A DNA stretch of 64,000 nucleotides from Streptantibioticus cattleyicolor NRRL 8057 = DSM 46488 (GTDB lineage: Bacteria; Actinomycetota; Actinomycetes; Streptomycetales; Streptomycetaceae), in contig NC_017586.1 in assembly GCF_000240165.1 (NCBI RefSeq), positions 4,278,001 to 4,342,000 on the forward strand, given 5' to 3'. The notes under the pieces are model-generated. The model had not been told where the DNA came from. It saw nothing but the letters and a program-made list of their open reading frames with translations, and did not search any database. The position numbers and the translations under genes were made by a program. Below are positions 20,515 through 33,708 of this stretch, in pieces (positions within the stretch are counted from its first letter, which is position 1; each line of letters begins with the position of its first letter).

Positions 20515-22965
20515 CTAACCGTCCGGCCTGGGCGAACGCCGGACGGCCGGCCACCCCACGGGTGACCGGTCGTCCGTCGCGTACGCCCTCGCGCGGCTCA
20601 GCCGGCGACGGCCTCCTCGGCCACGACGGCCTTGGCGGCCGTCTTGCGGGTCGTCCGCTTGCGCGGCGCGGGTGCCGCGTCGGCCTCGGCCGGCTCGGCG
20701 GCGACGGCCTTGCGGGTCGTCCGCTTGCGCGGCGCGGGTGCCGCTTCGGCTTCGGGAGCCTCGGCGACGGCCTTGCGGGTGGCCCGCTTGCGCGGGGCCG
20801 GGGTCGCTTGGGCTTCGAGTGCCTCGGCGACCGTCTTGCGCGTGGTGCGCTTGCGCGGGGCCGGGGTGGCTTCGGCCTCCGGGGCGTCGGCTACCGCCTT
20901 GCGCGTGGTGCGCTTGCGCGGGGCGGGCGCGGCCTCGGCCTCGGGTGCTTCCGCTACCGCCTTGCGGGTCGTGCGCTTGCGCGGCGCGGGGCGCCTCGGC
21001 CTCCGGTGCCTCGGCGACGGCCTTGCGGGTGGCCCGCTTGCGCGGGGCCGGGGTGGCTTCTGCCTCGGGGGCGTCGGCTACCGCCTTGCGGGTGGTGCGC
21101 TTGCGCGGGGCGGGCGCGGCCTCGGCTTCGGGGGCCTCGGTCGGCTCGGCGGCCACGGCGGCGGCCTTGCGGGTGGTCGTGCGCTTGCGCGGGGCCGGGA
21201 CGGTCTCGGTGACCGGCGCCGTGACCTCGGACGCGGTCTCCGGCGCCGCCTCGGGCTCGGCGACGGCCTTGACGGCACGGGTACGACGGCGGGCGGGCTT
21301 GGCGGGGGCCTCGGCCGCCGGCTCCAGCACCGTCACCGCGACGGGAACCTCGACCGGCTCGGCCACCGCAGCCACCGGAGCGGAATCCACCGGAGCGGAA
21401 TCCACCGGCGCCAAGGCCACCGGGGCGGAGGCGCCCGACCGGGTACGGCGACGGCGGCGCGGGGTGCGACGGCCTTCCGGAGCCTCCGGCGCGGCGGAGT
21501 CGCCGCCCTCGGCCACGGCGGCCGGCTGCTCGGCCGGGGCGTCGGACGTCTGGCCGCCACGGGTACGGCGACGGCGGCGCGGCGTACGTTCCCGCCGGGG
21601 CCGCTCGGCCTCCGGCTCGGCGTCACCGCGGCGGCGGCCACGCGGCCCCCGTCCGCCGGTCTCGCCGAGGTCCTCGATCTCCTCGGCGGCGAGCCCGGCC
21701 CGGGTGCGCTCGGCGCGCGGCAGCACACCGGTGACGTCCGTCGGGATGTCCAGCAGCTCGTAGAGGTGGCCGGAGGTGGAGTAGGTCTCCTCCGGCTCGT
21801 TGAACGACAGGTCGAGCGCCTTGTTGATCAGCTGCCAGCGCGGCACGTCGTCCCAGTCGACCAGGGTGATCGCGGTGCCCGAGGCGCCCGCCCGGCCGGT
21901 GCGGCCGACCCGGTGCAGATAGGTCTTCTCGTCCTCGGGGCACTGGTAGTTGACGACGTGGGTGACGCCGTCCACGTCGATGCCGCGCGCGGCGACGTCG
22001 GTGCACACCAGCACGTCGACCTTGCCGTTGCGGAACGCGCGCAGCGCCTGCTCGCGGGCGCCCTGGCCGAGGTCGCCGTGGACCGCACCGGCCGCGAAGC
22101 CGCGCCGGGAGAGCTGGTCGGCGACGTCGGCGGCGGTGCGCTTGGTACGGGCGAAGATCATGGCGAGCCCGCGCCCGCGCGCCTGGAGGATGCGGGAGAC
22201 CATCTCGACCTTGTCGAGCGAGTGGGCCCGGAAGACGTGCTGGGTGATGTTGGCCACGGTCGCGCCCTCGTCGTCCGGGGCGGTGGCCCGGATGTGGGTG
22301 GGCTGCGACATGTAACGGCGGGCGAGGGAGATCACCTGGCCGGGCATGGTGGCCGAGAAGAGCATGGTCTGGCGCTTGCGCGGCAGCATCTCCATGATCT
22401 TCTCGACGTCGGGCAGGAAGCCCAGGTCGAGCATCTCGTCGGCCTCGTCGAGCACCAGCGCGCGCACCGAGCCCAGCGCCAGCTTGCGCTGTCCGGCCAG
22501 GTCGAGCAGCCGGCCCGGGGTGCCCACGACCACGTCGACGCCCTTGTTCAACGCCTCGACCTGCGGCTCGTACGCCCGGCCGCCGTAGATCGCCAGCACC
22601 CGCACGTCACGTACCTTGCCGGCGGTGAGCAGGTCGTTGGTGACCTGGACGCACAGCTCCCGGGTGGGGACCACGACGAGGGCCTGCGGGGCGCCGTCGG
22701 CCAGCTCCTCGGGCCGGGCGCGGCCGGCCTCCACGTCGGCGGCGACGGTGACGCGCTCCAGCAGCGGGAGGCCGAAGCCGAGCGTCTTGCCGGTGCCGGT
22801 CTTGGCCTGGCCGATGACGTCGTTGCCGGCCAGCGCGACCGGCAGGGTCATCTCCTGAATGGGGAACGGGGTGGTGATGCCGACGGCCTCGAGGGCCTCG
22901 GCGGTCTCGGGGAGGATCCCGAGATCACGGAACGTCGTGGTGGACAGGGTGCTTGCCTCTTCCAT
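20515..22965 (-). CDS. DEAD-box RNA helicase with repetitive, frameshifted C-terminal tail
   Basis: 816 residues as read. The two RecA-like lobes are intact: Q-motif region to residue 40, Walker A AKTGTGKT (54-61), PTREL, GTPGR, DEAD (173-176), SAT (204-206) and HRVGRTGR (351-358). After residue ~430 the protein is a basic, Ala/Pro-rich tail with tandem repeats of about 21 residues (KRTTRKAV plus an acidic APEAEA stretch). At 20985-20995 the repeat is 2 nt short, so the frame changes and the last ~160 residues lose the pattern. The original frame would end at 20598 (VVAEEAVAG). The tail probably binds RNA. Homologous to RhlE/CshA-type helicases acting in ribosome or mRNA metabolism. Confidence 0.9.
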   Translation of the reverse strand: MEEASTLSTTTFRDLGILPETAEALEAVGITTPFPIQEMTLPVALAGNDVIGQAKTGTGKTLGFGLPLLERVTVAADVEAGRARPEELADGAPQALVVVPTRELCVQVTNDLLTAGKVRDVRVLAIYGGRAYEPQVEALNKGVDVVVGTPGRLLDLAGQRKLALGSVRALVLDEADEMLDLGFLPDVEKIMEMLPRKRQTMLFSATMPGQVISLARRYMSQPTHIRATAPDDEGATVANITQHVFRAHSLDKVEMVSRILQARGRGLAMIFARTKRTAADVADQLSRRGFAAGAVHGDLGQGAREQALRAFRNGKVDVLVCTDVAARGIDVDGVTHVVNYQCPEDEKTYLHRVGRTGRAGASGTAITLVDWDDVPRWQLINKALDLSFNEPEETYSTSGHLYELLDIPTDVTGVLPRAERTRAGLAAEEIEDLGETGGRGPRGRRRGDAEPEAERPRRERTPRRRRRTRGGQTSDAPAEQPAAVAEGGDSAAPEAPEGRRTPRRRRRTRSGASAPVALAPVDSAPVDSAPVAAVAEPVEVPVAVTVLEPAAEAPAKPARRRTRAVKAVAEPEAAPETASEVTAPVTETVPAPRKRTTTRKAAAVAAEPTEAPEAEAAPAPRKRTTRKAVADAPEAEATPAPRKRATRKAVAEAPEAEAPRAAQAHDPQGGSGSTRGRGRARPAQAHHAQGGSRRPGGRSHPGPAQAHHAQDGRRGTRSPSDPGPAQAGHPQGRRRGSRSRSGTRAAQADDPQGRRRRAGRGRRGTRAAQADDPQDGRQGRRGRGGRRRLSRARAYATDDRSPVGWPAVRRSPRPDG
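20650..21195. repeat. Tandem 63-bp coding repeats in the helicase tail
   Basis: The motif CGCTTGCGCGG recurs at about 20656, 20722, 20785, 20848, 20911, 20974, 21035, 21098 and 21181 (plus strand). Most steps are 63 bp (21 codons). One step (20974 to 21035) is 61 bp and causes the frameshift. Confidence 0.9.
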
Positions 22966-28095: not shown

Positions 28096-28137
28096 GACCG
28101 GCCCCGCGGACGGCGGCGGGGCCGGTCGGCCGGTTTT
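28096..28137 (+). terminator. Intrinsic terminator after the DUF3152 gene
   Basis: A perfect 12-bp stem (28096-28107 with 28116-28127), 8-nt loop, then GGCCGG and TTTT. The T-run overlaps the -35 of the next promoter. Confidence 0.8.
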
Positions 28138-28164
28138 GACATCGCACCCGACATCGGTCAATCT
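28136..28164 (+). promoter_or_regulatory. Strong vegetative promoter upstream of the peptide-transport leader
   Basis: A consensus TTGACA (28136-28141) is separated by 17 nt from CAATCT (28159-28164). The ATG of a 30-codon frame begins 7 nt after the -10. Confidence 0.7.
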
Positions 28165-28171
28165 CTTCGGC

Positions 28172-28264
28172 ATGTCGTCCCACCACGCCCCGCTGCGCGC
28201 CGCCATCGAGCTGGCGCTCATCGGCGTGGCCGGACACTCCGTCGCCGACGTCGACTGTCGCTGA
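28172..28264 (+). CDS. Putative 30-residue leader peptide of the peptide ABC operon
   Basis: A short frame (MSSHHAPLRAAIELALIGVA, ending VADVDCR) starts exactly where the strong promoter should initiate, so it is likely translated from a leaderless mRNA. Short frames with Cys near the end precede several actinobacterial sulphur and peptide transport operons and can act in attenuation. Here Cys-Arg directly precedes the stop. About 165 nt of G+C-rich leader follow before the binding-protein gene. Function is inferred from position; translation is unproven. Confidence 0.55.
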   Translation: MSSHHAPLRAAIELALIGVAGHSVADVDCR

Positions 28265-28428
28265 CCCGCCCGTCCCCGCCGCGCCCCGGCCTGCCGCCGG
28301 CCCGCGCCGGGACGGTTCCGCCGCGGGTGCAGTACCTCCCGGGCCGCCGTCCGGCCGTCCTTCCCTTTCCGCTGCCGCCCGCGGGATCGATCTCCCCAGC
28401 CCCCCGGCAGTGAAAGGTCCACCGACCC

Positions 28429-30150
28429 GTGTCACCCCTGTCCGCCATACCCCGTCCCCGGCGGCGCGCCGCCGCCGTCGCGGCCCTCACCGCCGTCGTC
28501 GCCGTGGCCGCCGCCGCGTGCGGCCCCAAGAGCCAGAACGCGGCCACCGACGCCGCCCCGCACCCCGGCGGCACCCTCACCGTGCTCAACCAGGACCCGC
28601 AGGACAAGTTCGACCCCGCCCGGGAGTACACCTCCGGCGGCGGAAACGTTCCCTCGCTGGTCTTCCGCACCCTGACCACCCGCAACCGCGCGGCCGGCCA
28701 GGCGGGCACCAAGGTCGTCCCCGACCTCGCCACCGACACCGGCACCCCCTCGCACAACGCCACGGTGTGGACCTACCACCTCAAGGACGGGCTGAAGTAC
28801 GAGGACGGGACCGCGATCACCACCGCCGACATCAAGTACGGCATCGAGCGCTCCTTCGCTCCCGAACTCACCGGCGGCCCGCCCTACTTCCGCGACTGGC
28901 TGGCCGGCGCCGCCGACTACCAGGGCCCGTACAAAGACCCCAAGGGCCTCGCCTCCATCGAGACCCCCGACCCGAAGACCATCGTCTTCCACCTGCGCAA
29001 GCCCGAGGGCGACTTCCCGTACCTGGCCACCGCCACCCAGTTCGCCCCGGTGCCCAAGGCCAAGGACACCGGCGTGAAGTACGCCGAACACCCGGTCTCC
29101 TCCGGCCCGTACGAGGTCGTCAGCAACGAGAACGACGGCCAGCACCTGGTGCTCGAGCGCAACCCCCACTGGTCCGCCAGGACCGACCCGCAGCGCAAGG
29201 CGTACCCCGACACCATCGACGTGCGCTCCGGGCTCGACCCGGCGGTGATCAACCAGCGGCTGGCCGGCAGCACCGGCCCGGACGCCGCGGCCGTCACCAC
29301 CGACACCAACCTCGGCCCCTCCGAACTCGCCCGGATCTCCGGCGACAAGGAGCTGGCCGCCCGGGTCGGCACCGGCCACTTCGGTTACACCGACTACCTG
29401 GCCTTCAACACCAAGGTGAAGCCGTTCGACAACCCCAAGGTGCGCCAGGCCATCGCCTACGCGATCAACCGCACCTCGGTGGTGAACGCGGCCGGCGGCT
29501 CCTCCCTCGCCGAGCCCGCCACCACCTTCCTGCCCGACCAGGCGGCCTTCGGGTACACCCCCTACGACCCGTTCCCGGCCGGCGCCGCCGGTGACCCGGC
29601 CAAGGCCAAGGAACTGCTGAAGCAGGCCGGTTACCCCGACGGGCTCACCGTCACCCTCACCCACTCCGACTCCAACGCCGCCGCCTACGGCCCCGACATC
29701 GCCACCGCCGTGCAGGACGGGCTCAAGGCGGCCGGCATCACCGTCAAGCTCAGCGCCGTCCCGGAGAGCGGCTACCGGCAGACCATCCACGCTCTCAAGA
29801 CCGAGCCCGGGTTCTTCCTGGCCGGCTGGGGCGCCGACTGGCCCTCCGGCGGCCCCTTCCTCGCCCCGATCTTCGACGGCCGGCAGATCGTCGCCGACGG
29901 CTCCAACTTCAACAGCGCCCAGTTCGACGACCCGGCCGTCAACCAGGAGATCGACGCCGTCAACGGGCTCACCGACCACGCCGCGGCGGCCAAGCGGTGG
30001 GGCGCCCTCGACCAGCGGATCGGCGCCCAGGCGCTCACCGTCCCGCTCTTCCACCCGGTCTACAAGCGGCTCGTCGGCAAGGACGTGCGCAACGTCGTGA
30101 TCAGCGACTGGACCGGCGTGCTGGACATCTCGCAGGTCGCGGTCAAGTGA
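28429..30150 (+). CDS. Peptide/dipeptide ABC transporter substrate-binding lipoprotein
   Basis: A 573-residue SBP family 5 protein. A signal peptide with lipobox AAAAC (Cys31) is followed by the family features GGTLTVLNQDP, ADIKYGIERSF, the SSGPYEV segment and NPKVRQAIAYAINR. It should capture oligopeptides (or nickel/other ligands in this family) at the outer face of the membrane. GTG 28429 has GAAAGG about 10 nt upstream. It is the first gene of a four-gene operon whose members overlap by GTGA. Confidence 0.93.
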   Translation: MSPLSAIPRPRRRAAAVAALTAVVAVAAAACGPKSQNAATDAAPHPGGTLTVLNQDPQDKFDPAREYTSGGGNVPSLVFRTLTTRNRAAGQAGTKVVPDLATDTGTPSHNATVWTYHLKDGLKYEDGTAITTADIKYGIERSFAPELTGGPPYFRDWLAGAADYQGPYKDPKGLASIETPDPKTIVFHLRKPEGDFPYLATATQFAPVPKAKDTGVKYAEHPVSSGPYEVVSNENDGQHLVLERNPHWSARTDPQRKAYPDTIDVRSGLDPAVINQRLAGSTGPDAAAVTTDTNLGPSELARISGDKELAARVGTGHFGYTDYLAFNTKVKPFDNPKVRQAIAYAINRTSVVNAAGGSSLAEPATTFLPDQAAFGYTPYDPFPAGAAGDPAKAKELLKQAGYPDGLTVTLTHSDSNAAAYGPDIATAVQDGLKAAGITVKLSAVPESGYRQTIHALKTEPGFFLAGWGADWPSGGPFLAPIFDGRQIVADGSNFNSAQFDDPAVNQEIDAVNGLTDHAAAAKRWGALDQRIGAQALTVPLFHPVYKRLVGKDVRNVVISDWTGVLDISQVAVK

Positions 30151-31112
30151 GCACCGGAGCACCCCCGATCACGCGCGAGGCCGCCGGGACCGTCCCGGCG
30201 GCCCCGCCCCGGCCGGTGTGGCGGCGGCTGCGTTCCCGGCGCGCCGCGCTGGCCGGCGGTGTCGTCCTCGCCCTGCTGGCGCTGACCGCGATCGCCGCGC
30301 CGTGGCTGGCCGCGGCCGAGGGCCAGGACCCCACCACGTACCACGACACCCTGCTCAACTCGGCCGCCGGCGGGGTGCCCCACGGCGCCTTCGGCGGGGT
30401 CAGCGGCAGCCACTGGCTCGGCGTGGAGCCGGGCACCGGCCGGGACGTCTTCGCCCGGCTCGTCTACGGCGCGCGGATCTCCCTGCTGGTCGCCCTCGGC
30501 GCCACCGCCGTCCAGGTGCTCGTCGGGGTGGCCGTCGGCCTCGCCGCCGGACTCGGCAGCCGCCTGCTGGACCAGGCGCTCGACCACACCACCTCGGTGA
30601 TGCTGGCGCTGCCCACCCTGGTGCTCGCCCTGGCGCTGATGGCCGTCGTCCCGGCCGGCTTCCCCCGCCCGGTGCTGCTGATGCTCGTCATCGGCCTGCT
30701 CGGCTGGGGCGGCACCGCCCGGGTGGTACGCGCCCAGACGCTCACCCTGAGGGAACTCGACTACGTGGCCGCCGCCCGGCTCGGCGGCGCCTCCCGGCTG
30801 CGCATCGCCCGGCGCGAACTGCTGCCGTCGCTGGCCGCGCCGGTGATCACCTACGCGGCGCTGCTGCTCCCCACCAACGTGGTCAGCGAGGCCGGGCTCT
30901 CCTTCCTCGGCGTCGGCGTCCGTCCGCCGACCTCCTCCTGGGGCCAGACGCTCTCCACCGCGACCACCTGGTTCCGCGCCGACCCCACCTACGTGCTGCT
31001 GCCCGCGCTGCTGCTCTTCGTCACCACGCTGGCCTTCACCGTCACCGGCGACGCGGTGCGTTCCGCGCTCGACCCGCGCGCCGCCTCCCGGGTGAACGGA
31101 GGCACCCGGTGA
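30147..31112 (+). CDS. Peptide ABC transporter permease (DppC/OppC type)
   Basis: A 321-residue membrane permease with a cytoplasmic N-terminal helix region (WRRLRSRRAALAGGVV), an extracytoplasmic loop (HWLGVEPGTGRDVFARLVYGARISL) typical of DppC, and the EAA loop YVAAARLGGASRLRIARRELLP. The GTG overlaps the previous stop. It pairs with the next permease to form the channel. Confidence 0.93.
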   Translation: MSTGAPPITREAAGTVPAAPPRPVWRRLRSRRAALAGGVVLALLALTAIAAPWLAAAEGQDPTTYHDTLLNSAAGGVPHGAFGGVSGSHWLGVEPGTGRDVFARLVYGARISLLVALGATAVQVLVGVAVGLAAGLGSRLLDQALDHTTSVMLALPTLVLALALMAVVPAGFPRPVLLMLVIGLLGWGGTARVVRAQTLTLRELDYVAAARLGGASRLRIARRELLPSLAAPVITYAALLLPTNVVSEAGLSFLGVGVRPPTSSWGQTLSTATTWFRADPTYVLLPALLLFVTTLAFTVTGDAVRSALDPRAASRVNGGTR

Positions 31113-32101
31113 CCGGTTACGTCCTGCGCCGGCTCGTCGGCATGGCCGTTGTCCTGCTGGTGCTCTCGGTGGTCGTCTACGCGGTCTTCTACCTCGCCCC
31201 CGGCGACCCCGCCCAGATGGCCTGCGGCATGCGCTGCGGCCCGGTACAGGTGCACCAACTGCGCGCCCAGCTCGGCCTGGACGAGCCGGTGCTCACCCAG
31301 TACGGCCACTTCCTCATCGGGCTGTTCACCGGCCGCACCTTCGGCTCCGGCGCCGCCGCGCTCCACTGCGACGCGCCGTGCCTGGGCATCTCCTACCGCA
31401 CCAACGAGCAGGTCTGGGCCATGATCACGGCCCGGCTGCCGGTCACCGCGTCGCTGGCGCTCGGTGCCATGGTGGTCTGGCTGCTGCTCGGGGTGGGCAC
31501 CGGGCTCCTCTCCGTGCTGCGCCGCGGCCGGTTCACCGAACGGCTGCTGACCTCGCTCACCCTGGCCGGCACCGCGGTCCCGGTGTTCATCATCGGGCTG
31601 CTGCTCCTGCTGCTGTTCTGCGCCTACCTGCAATGGCTGCCGTTCCCCAGCTACGTACCGCTCACCCAGGACCCGCAGCAGTGGTTCTGGGGGCTGCTGC
31701 TGCCGTGGGTGTCGCTGGCGCTGATCGAGTCCGCCAAGTACGCGCGGCTGACCCGCTCGGCGATGCTGGAGACGCTCGCCGAGGACCACATCAGGACGTT
31801 CCGCGCCTACGGCATCGGTGAGCGCCACCTGGTCACCCGGCACGCGCTGCGCGCCTCGCTCACCCCGGTGATCGCCTTGTCCGCGATGGACCTGGGCACC
31901 ATGTTCGGCAGCGCGGTGCTCACCGAGTCGCTCTTCGGACTGCCCGGCCTCGGGCGGCTGATGGTCGGCTCGGTCAACGTCCTCGACCTGCCGGTGGTGG
32001 TCGGACTCGTCCTGGTCACCGGCTTCTTCGTGGTGGCCGCGGGCGCGGTCGCCGACATCCTCTACGCGGTCGCCGACCGAAGGGTGGTGGCGCGGCCGTG
32101 A
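31109..32101 (+). CDS. Peptide ABC transporter permease (DppB/OppB type)
   Basis: A 330-residue permease beginning with the DppB-type N-terminus (YVLRRLVGMAVVLLVLSVVV, YLAPGDPA). The EAA loop is HIRTFRAYGIGERHLVTRHA and the C-terminal helix bundle is complete. Two Cys-containing inserts (MACGMRCG; LHCDAPCLG) lie in the first extracytoplasmic loop, which is longer than usual. Start GTG overlaps the previous stop by 4 nt. The permease order C then B is reversed from the classical dppBC order. Confidence 0.93.
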   Translation: MTGYVLRRLVGMAVVLLVLSVVVYAVFYLAPGDPAQMACGMRCGPVQVHQLRAQLGLDEPVLTQYGHFLIGLFTGRTFGSGAAALHCDAPCLGISYRTNEQVWAMITARLPVTASLALGAMVVWLLLGVGTGLLSVLRRGRFTERLLTSLTLAGTAVPVFIIGLLLLLLFCAYLQWLPFPSYVPLTQDPQQWFWGLLLPWVSLALIESAKYARLTRSAMLETLAEDHIRTFRAYGIGERHLVTRHALRASLTPVIALSAMDLGTMFGSAVLTESLFGLPGLGRLMVGSVNVLDLPVVVGLVLVTGFFVVAAGAVADILYAVADRRVVARP

Positions 32102-33708
32102 ACGACGCGAACGAGCCGCTGATCGACATCGCGGGGCTCACCGTGGACTTCCCGGTGGCCGACGGCAACGTACGGGCCGTGGACCGGCTCGACCTGCGCC
32201 TCGATCCGGGCGAGGCGCTCGGCATCGTGGGCGAGTCCGGCTCCGGCAAGAGCACCGTCGCCTTCAGCCTGCTGGGGCTGGAACGCGGCACCGGGGCGCG
32301 GGTGACCGGACGGATCCGGGTCGGCGGGATCGACCCGCGCACCGCCGAGGGGGCCGAACTGCGCAGACTGCGCGGGGAGGTGGCGGCCATGGTCTTCCAG
32401 GACCCGCTCTCCGCCCTCGACCCCTACCAGGCCGTCGGCGACCAGATCGCCGAGGTGGTCCGGGCACACCGGGCGCTGCCCCGCAAGGCGGCCCGGGCCC
32501 GCGCCGTCGAGGTCCTCGACCGGGTCGGCATCCCCGACGCCGCCCGCCGCGCGCGGTTCCGTCCGCACGAGTTCAGCGGCGGCATGCGGCAACGGGTGCT
32601 CATCGGCATGGCGTTGGCCTGCGAACCCCGGCTGGTCGTCGCCGACGAGCCGACCACCGCGCTGGACGTCACCGTGCAGGCGCAGATCCTCGCCCTGCTG
32701 CACGAGGTGCGCCGGGAGACCGGCGCCGGACTGCTGCTGGTCACCCACGACCTGGGGGTGGCCGCCGGGGCGGTGGAACGGGTGCTGGTGATGAAGGACG
32801 GCCGCGCGGTGGAGAGCGGCCCGGCCGGACAGGTGCTCGCCACCCCGCGTGAGCCGTACACCAAGGCGCTGCTGTCCGCGGTGCCGCGGGTGGACGCGCC
32901 GCGCGAACCGGCGCGGCGGACCGGGGACGAGGTGCTGCTCCAAGCGGACGGCCTGCGGCGGGAGTTCGGGCGCCGTGGCGCCGCCGTCACCGCCGTGGAC
33001 GGCGTCTCACTGACCGTACGGCGTGGTGAGACGCTGGGCGTCGTGGGCGAGTCCGGCTCCGGCAAGACGACGCTGGGCCGCATGCTGGTCGGTCTGCTGC
33101 CGCCCACGTCCGGGCGGCTGGTCCTGGACGGGCGGGAGCTGACCGGGCTCGGCGAACGCCGGCTCCGGCCGCTGCGGCGCGAGTTGCAGATGGTCTTCCA
33201 GGACCCGGTCGCCTCGCTCAACCCCCGGCGCACCATCGGCGAGTCCGTCGCCGACCCGCTGCGCGCGGCGGGCCGCCCCGACCCCGCCGCCGTCCGGGGG
33301 CGGGTACGGGAACTGCTGGAACGGGTCGGCCTCGACCCGCGCTGGTACGACCGCTACCCGCACGAACTCTCCGGCGGACAGCGACAACGCGTCGGCATCG
33401 CCCGCGCGCTGGCCCCCGGGCCCCGGCTCATCGTCTGCGACGAACCGGTCTCCGCCCTCGACGTCACCACCCAGGCACAGGTCGTCGAGGTCCTCAAGGA
33501 CGTGCAACGGGACCTCGGCGTCGCCCTCGTCTTCATCGCCCACGACCTCGCCGTCGTCCGGCAGATCAGCGACCGCGTCGCCGTCCTGCGGGCCGGTCGC
33601 GTCGTCGAGGAGGGCCCCGTCGACACCGTGTACGACGCTCCCGCGCATCCGTATACGCGGACGTTGCTGGCCGCGGCCCCGATGCTCCCGGCGGGGGCGC
33701 TGGACTGA
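32098..33708 (+). CDS. Peptide ABC transporter ATPase, two fused domains (DppD-DppF)
   Basis: A 536-residue protein holding two complete ATPase domains. Domain 1 has Walker [10 protein letters not shown] (about residues 44-52), signature FSGGMRQRV and Walker B VVADEPT. Domain 2 has GESGSGKTT (about 316-324), LSGGQRQRV and [11 protein letters not shown]. Each has a C-terminal YTKALL/YTRTLL oligopeptide-type tail. Fused DppDF proteins are common in actinobacteria. The GTG overlaps the permease stop. The operon ends here; repeat-rich noncoding DNA begins immediately after the stop. Confidence 0.95.

Follow-up and report, generated by a model that had tools for sequence, protein, structure and literature searches.

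A conserved Cys leader frame with an invariant TGT codon, a likely cysteine sensor, ahead of a peptide importer operon in Streptantibioticus cattleyicolor

Features of the locus

The window analysed here is a stretch of 64,000 nucleotides from Streptantibioticus cattleyicolor NRRL 8057 (contig NC_017586.1, positions 4,278,001 to 4,342,000). Downstream of a DUF3152 gene it holds a 30-codon leader frame followed by the genes of an Opp-type importer (Table 1). As the preliminary description had read directly from the sequence, TTGACA and CAATCT are separated by 17 nt and the leader peptide ends in Asp-Cys-Arg; the frame begins with ATG at 28172 and closes with TGA at 28262-28264, and the distance to the binding-protein gene, given there as about 165 nt, is 164 nt. 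The frame has a single Cys codon, and contiguous Cys codons are absent.

A generic sigma-70 scan of this stretch found no promoter, because CAATCT resembles TATAAT weakly. With 7 nt from the -10 hexamer to the ATG and a conserved geometry, the sequence points to a leaderless start, and transcription would begin at the leader ATG. Promoter scoring was possible for 109 of the 111 distinct leaders of the family, a set that leaves out duplicates, loci without a binding-protein match and leaders below 40 bits by its own profile (L018, L159, L161, L162 and L163). TTGACA is matched at 6 of 6 positions in 91 of the 109 scored leaders, the spacer measures 17-18 nt in 99, and the start codon (ATG in 107, GTG in 2) follows the -10 hexamer after 6-7 nt in 101; an SD-like tetramer precedes it in 1 of the 109.

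The nearest solved structure to the binding protein is 2wok, an oligopeptide binder from the clavulanic acid cluster (276 bits), which we take to be OppA2 of S. clavuligerus. Elsewhere in the window, positions 20615-21140 contain a tandem array with a period of 63 (21 codons) and about 8 copies; translated from the minus strand, it would give a Pro-Glu-Ala/Arg-Lys-Thr-rich repeat.

Table 1. Coordinates of the leader, its promoter, the untranslated stretch and the importer genes in the window
Feature	Position	Strand	Evidence
-35 hexamer TTGACA	28136..28141	+	read from sequence; conserved in family leaders
-10 hexamer CAATCT, ATG of leader 7 nt on	28159..28164	+	sequence; spacing conserved
Putatively leaderless 30-codon leader frame MSSHHAPLRAAIELALIGVAGHSVADVDCR, NF042937 family	28172..28264	+	translation, profile match, relatives
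Invariant putative regulatory Cys codon TGT, two codons before stop	28256..28258	+	alignment of relatives
Untranslated stretch, 164 nt, leader to binding-protein gene (putative expression platform)	28265..28428	+	sequence, folding
GCGGGTGCAG, candidate antisequestor, possibly pairing with 28372-28382; kept in nearest relatives	28323..28332	+	sequence, alignment of relatives
Anti-SD arm CCTTTC(C)GCTGCC	28364..28376	+	folds with 28406-28417
GGCAGTGAAAGG: SD (AAAGG) within predicted sequestering hairpin	28406..28417	+	folding
Substrate-binding protein, SBP_bac_5, lipoprotein-like N terminus, GTG start	28429..30150	+	domain match, structure match
Permease, OppC type	30144..31112	+	domain match
Permease, OppB type	31139..32101	+	domain match
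Fused double ATPase, OppDF/GsiA-like	32098..33708	+	domain match

Leader family and genomic neighbours

The leader peptide matches NCBIfam NF042937 (Ms4533A Cys-rich leader) over its full length with 48.6 bits (cut-off 31), so that the frame is beyond chance and of a kind already known. As to the sulfur or cysteine operon that serves as a criterion of NF042937, the window leader precedes an Opp-type importer whose closest structure is a peptide binder. In the family of the window organism, matches of this type were found in 129 of 297 genomes at E 0.01, with 105 above the cut-off; a search of the class delivered matches at E 0.001 in 40 of 394 genomes, a second family in 84 of 151, and 14 control genomes none. 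From the NCBIfam name, the sulfate operon and the named relatives we infer that the second family is Mycobacteriaceae and that of the window Streptomycetaceae. Loose matches at L012, L015-L017 and L019-L021, where a binding-protein neighbour is absent, look like chance and were rejected.

A binding-protein ortholog at E < 1e-195 is present in 29 of 61 genomes, and the leader stands ahead of it in 28 of these 29; the best copy of G042 is the one without it. Conservation of the frame and its terminal Cys in orthologous leaders, on which the preliminary description had staked its reading beforehand, holds in 80 of 80 named orthologous loci (the best 80 of 277 relatives).

All 42 distinct leaders read in Mycobacteriaceae stand before genes resembling that of L053, which exceeds the cut-off of TIGR00971 (sulfate-binding protein); no match to SBP5 genes was found behind the Mycobacteriaceae leaders. 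In genome G471, from a different family, a leader-like frame with TGT (L300:420-2999; 29.9 bits, below the cut-off of 31) lies ahead of a sulfatase gene. Homologous leaders before a sulfate-binding gene and a sulfatase make cysteine control of the importer likely.

Genome G671 carries two leaders 1.8 kb apart (L294:262 and 2094), each with its own sulfate-binding-type gene; several further genomes of its genus have two leader matches, and the second family includes genomes with closely spaced pairs. Among the 30 best matches in the family of the window, the operon behind the leader is truncated in two (L022 and L045), and at L282 and L285 the leader likewise precedes a deleted or broken operon; in these four genomes the leader outlives its operon.

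Conserved peptide core and codon usage

Leu-1, Gly1, Asp9 and Cys12 are invariant in 111 of 111 distinct leaders and Val7 in 110. Cys12, the terminal Cys, is encoded by TGT in all 111 and in 64 of 64 further distinct leaders from the scan of named genomes (best 80 of 277 relatives), and it alone is invariant in both residue and codon among the 111. The Cys codons of the window, counted with a rough ORF filter, number 116 TGC against 6 TGT; this count replaces a pooled long-ORF codon background, which was set aside as it included antisense frames. On the binding-protein tree, at least 24 synonymous changes fall on Leu-1, at least 19 on Gly1, at least 16 on Val7 and at least 19 on Ile10, and none on Cys12. 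Turnover is low too at Asp9 (3), Val2 (2), Ala8 (2) and the upstream Cys6 (2), so that low turnover alone is not rare; the oddity is that Cys12 is locked on a codon avoided by the genome, while Cys6 is TGC in 77 of 79 leaders.

The same codon recurs in other Cys leaders. In Mycobacteriaceae, 42 of 42 leaders use TGT for the first Cys that follows the Asp (all Cys codons: 74 TGT, 9 TGC). The SxxC Cys of NF042934 leaders is TGT in 60 of 60 parsed (70 loci less 9 unparsed and 1 duplicate), with 41 TGC and 7 TGT at their remaining Cys. The matching position of Ms4527A leaders is TGT in 26 of 27 Cys codons, two more leaders having no Cys there (other Cys: 28 TGT, 36 TGC), and that of Ms5788A leaders in 21 of 27 (others: 45 TGT, 65 TGC). 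Three of the four leader families thus follow the rule without exception or almost so, and the fourth shows a tendency; as the counts come from related sequences, Fisher values overstate their significance.

Five further leaders of the NF042934 type occur elsewhere in the genome of the window, three above and two below the cut-off, and all use TGT. The neighbour of one (L178) scores above the cut-off for cysteine synthase. Neighbours of three others, each below the cut-off of its own protein family, are related to rhodanese or mercaptopyruvate sulfurtransferase (L303), to nitrite/sulfite reductase (L305) and to methanethiol oxidase (L302); the last, with its TGT-bearing leader (L302:1501-3037), is a possible further cysteine-controlled gene. 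A scan of the tRNA loci, with nine long tRNA matches left out, found one tRNA-Cys gene in this genome, with the anticodon GCA. Because the codon is invariant, the rare UGU, read by wobble, may be the sensor.

The invariant TGT codon and the conserved core of residues other than Cys go beyond the preliminary description, and the codon invariance of the regulatory Cys is new here. No statement of the UGU rule was found in the available parts of PMC4633059, PMC9031893, PMC1262725, PMC8632094, PMC8079986, PMC9094748 and PMC13236596; Canestrari 2020 lay outside this search, and an earlier mention there is possible.

RNA folding of the untranslated stretch

The SD of the window has an unpaired probability of 0.02-0.05 in all folding states tried, and its anti-SD arm shows no change (0.13 to 0.13); the window leader does not switch on folding. 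When 109 complete leaders were folded at equilibrium with a ribosome on the Cys codon, the SD showed no systematic change (13 up, 9 down), and SD release as a general rule is unsupported by this approach. Sequestration of the SD is slightly stronger than in a control with shuffled upstream sequence (unpaired 0.195 versus 0.249; lower in 36 of 55). Beyond the stop codon, pairing of the anti-SD increased in 38 of 97 leaders and decreased in 4.

In a clade of 21 Streptomyces leaders three helices are apparent, in a 1:2/2:3/3:4 RNA layout: H1 spans the leader end, H2 is a hairpin followed by U residues, and in H3 the SD side pairs with GACGACC. Four pairs of H2 have changed on both sides; H1 and H3 are nearly invariant and therefore offer no covariation support for either helix. 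When the ribosome stands at Cys and the SD has not yet been made, pairing of region 2 with the anti-SD (2:3) reaches 0.67-0.69, compared with 0.20-0.24 in the free RNA, and it rises in 17 or 19 of the 21 leaders, depending on transcript length. A control with shuffled region 2 gave a mean of 0.38, and 0 of the 21 leaders exceeded the pooled 95th percentile.

A search of the window stretch for an intrinsic terminator ahead of the first gene found none; one was found in the relative L087. Rfam at gathering scores delivered no match in the window. The cysteine attenuation put forward in the preliminary description is supported by membership in NF042937 and by the sulfate and sulfatase targets of homologous leaders; as to the attenuation step itself, the window stretch yielded no terminator and the window fold no switch.

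Comparison with known systems

With the Ms4533A leaders of NF042937 the window leader shares the full-length match, the homologous core and spacing and the leaderless promoter geometry. It differs in that an Opp-type importer lies downstream in Streptomycetaceae, whereas Mycobacteriaceae have a sulfate-binding protein there, and in that a single Cys close to the stop takes the place of a run.

Polycysteine leaderless short ORFs of mycobacteria were reportedly described by Canestrari in 2020. These attenuators are said to carry contiguous Cys codons and to raise expression on cysteine limitation, when the stalled ribosome frees a sequestered RBS. They share with the window leader the short leaderless frame and the Cys codons near the stop, and a sulfur operon lies downstream there. 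The window leader lacks contiguous Cys codons, its signature being a core of other residues plus a fixed rare codon; its SD is sequestered without a switch, and the rise in 2:3 pairing is seen in one clade, with a weak shuffle control. From a classical transcription attenuator it differs in that no intrinsic terminator was found before the first gene. NF042934 leaders (RHVDLxRxxSAxC) occur in the same genomes (61 of 61) and follow the TGT rule, but have a different peptide motif.

The polycysteine short ORFs of Canestrari 2020 are described in a review (PMC9031893), mycobacterial Cys-rich leaderless frames are reported with attenuation as a speculation (PMC4633059), and mycobacterial cys operons have Cys leaders without terminators (PMC1262725). 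The Rhodobacterales cysS frame uORFC-8-2 is likewise a Cys-codon leader for which attenuation is proposed, but with tandem Cys codons, UGC dominant, a clear terminator and a tRNA-synthetase target (PMC8632094). Eight leaders are treated in S. lividans, the present one not among them (PMC8079986); the metL leader in that paper, called methionine-dependent, ends in CMCRRMCAF with three Cys and may answer to cysteine.

Proposed mechanism and alternatives

The leader before the peptide importer is old and conserved and most likely serves soil bacteria in sensing cysteine shortage. Judged from sequence, the operon is probably switched on when a scarcity of Cys-tRNA makes the ribosome pause at one UGU codon. 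Translation of the leader peptide would start on a leaderless transcript. Short of charged tRNA-Cys, the ribosome would pause at the single UGU, two codons before the stop, and cover the end of the leader RNA; this would shift the fold of the 164-nt stretch, and SD release or escape from termination would allow expression of the binding-protein gene. The cell would thereby import peptides as a source of cysteine or sulfur, and with ample cysteine the ribosome would end, leave and keep the operon low. We infer the pausing, the direction of control and the SD release (or termination escape). Points against this mechanism are the one Cys in place of a run, the window SD that stays closed on folding, the leader before a deleted or broken operon in four genomes and the peptide binder as nearest solved structure. 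As the folding support is confined to one clade and the window leader is unchanged, it is the sensing part that is considered likely, and the output part is tentative.

An arrest peptide of the TnaC kind acting with Rho is unlikely. On this reading the conserved nascent chain itself (LALIxV....VADIxC), for which cysteine or a thiol may act as ligand, would halt the ribosome at the end of the leader and mask a Rho-loading site just behind the stop. The core is conserved, and its distance to the Cys constant, in Streptomycetales and Mycobacteriaceae alike, and the frequent synonymous changes at several of its residues indicate that the amino acids matter. The lack of a detected terminator in the window stretch agrees with Rho, which was suggested for mycobacterial cys leaders in Seliverstov 2005 (PMC1262725). 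C exceeds G in the untranslated stretch in 108 of 108, but equally so in leader frames and gene starts (108 of 108), so this composition is not specific for Rho; moreover, one clade has a terminator-like hairpin instead, and arrest through the peptide alone leaves the TGT rule unexplained.

It is about as improbable that the invariant TGT reflects an RNA pairing constraint, its third base pairing with A in the leader-end hairpin H1, and not decoding. The U6-A41 pair is present in 21 of 21 aligned Streptomyces leaders, but NF042934, with another peptide and setting, makes the same codon choice, as do the Ms4527A leaders at one position, and the near invariance of H1 deprives the pairs of covariation support.

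A response to peptide supply or general starvation, not cysteine, is suggested by the Opp-type importer itself and is very unlikely in view of the sulfate import and sulfatase genes behind homologous leaders and of a Cys that is the sole residue fixed in amino acid and codon; the response to peptide supply offered in the preliminary description found no support of its own. That the 30-residue product acts as a small protein, such as one that binds membranes or metals, and has no control role is least probable: its hydrophobic stretch and C-terminal Cys are conserved, but such a protein gives no reason for TGT in every leader or for targets that comprise two unrelated transporters and a sulfatase.

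It is conceivable, at somewhat less than even chances, that in actinobacterial Cys leaders the pause is set not by a Cys run but by one dedicated UGU, rare and read by wobble, in a constant position behind a conserved nascent-chain motif, acting together with the peptide inside the exit tunnel, and that one leader module came to be joined to unrelated genes for sulfur acquisition (sulfate importer, sulfatase, peptide importer), which would mark the peptide importer as a cysteine source. Searches for runs of Cys codons miss such single-Cys sensors. The codon choice of the leader provides a testable rule, as a change from TGT to TGC, with the peptide the same, predicts a weaker response. For a peptide importer that many Streptomycetaceae carry, the leader points to a likely signal and to the nutrient probably gained, cysteine or sulfur.
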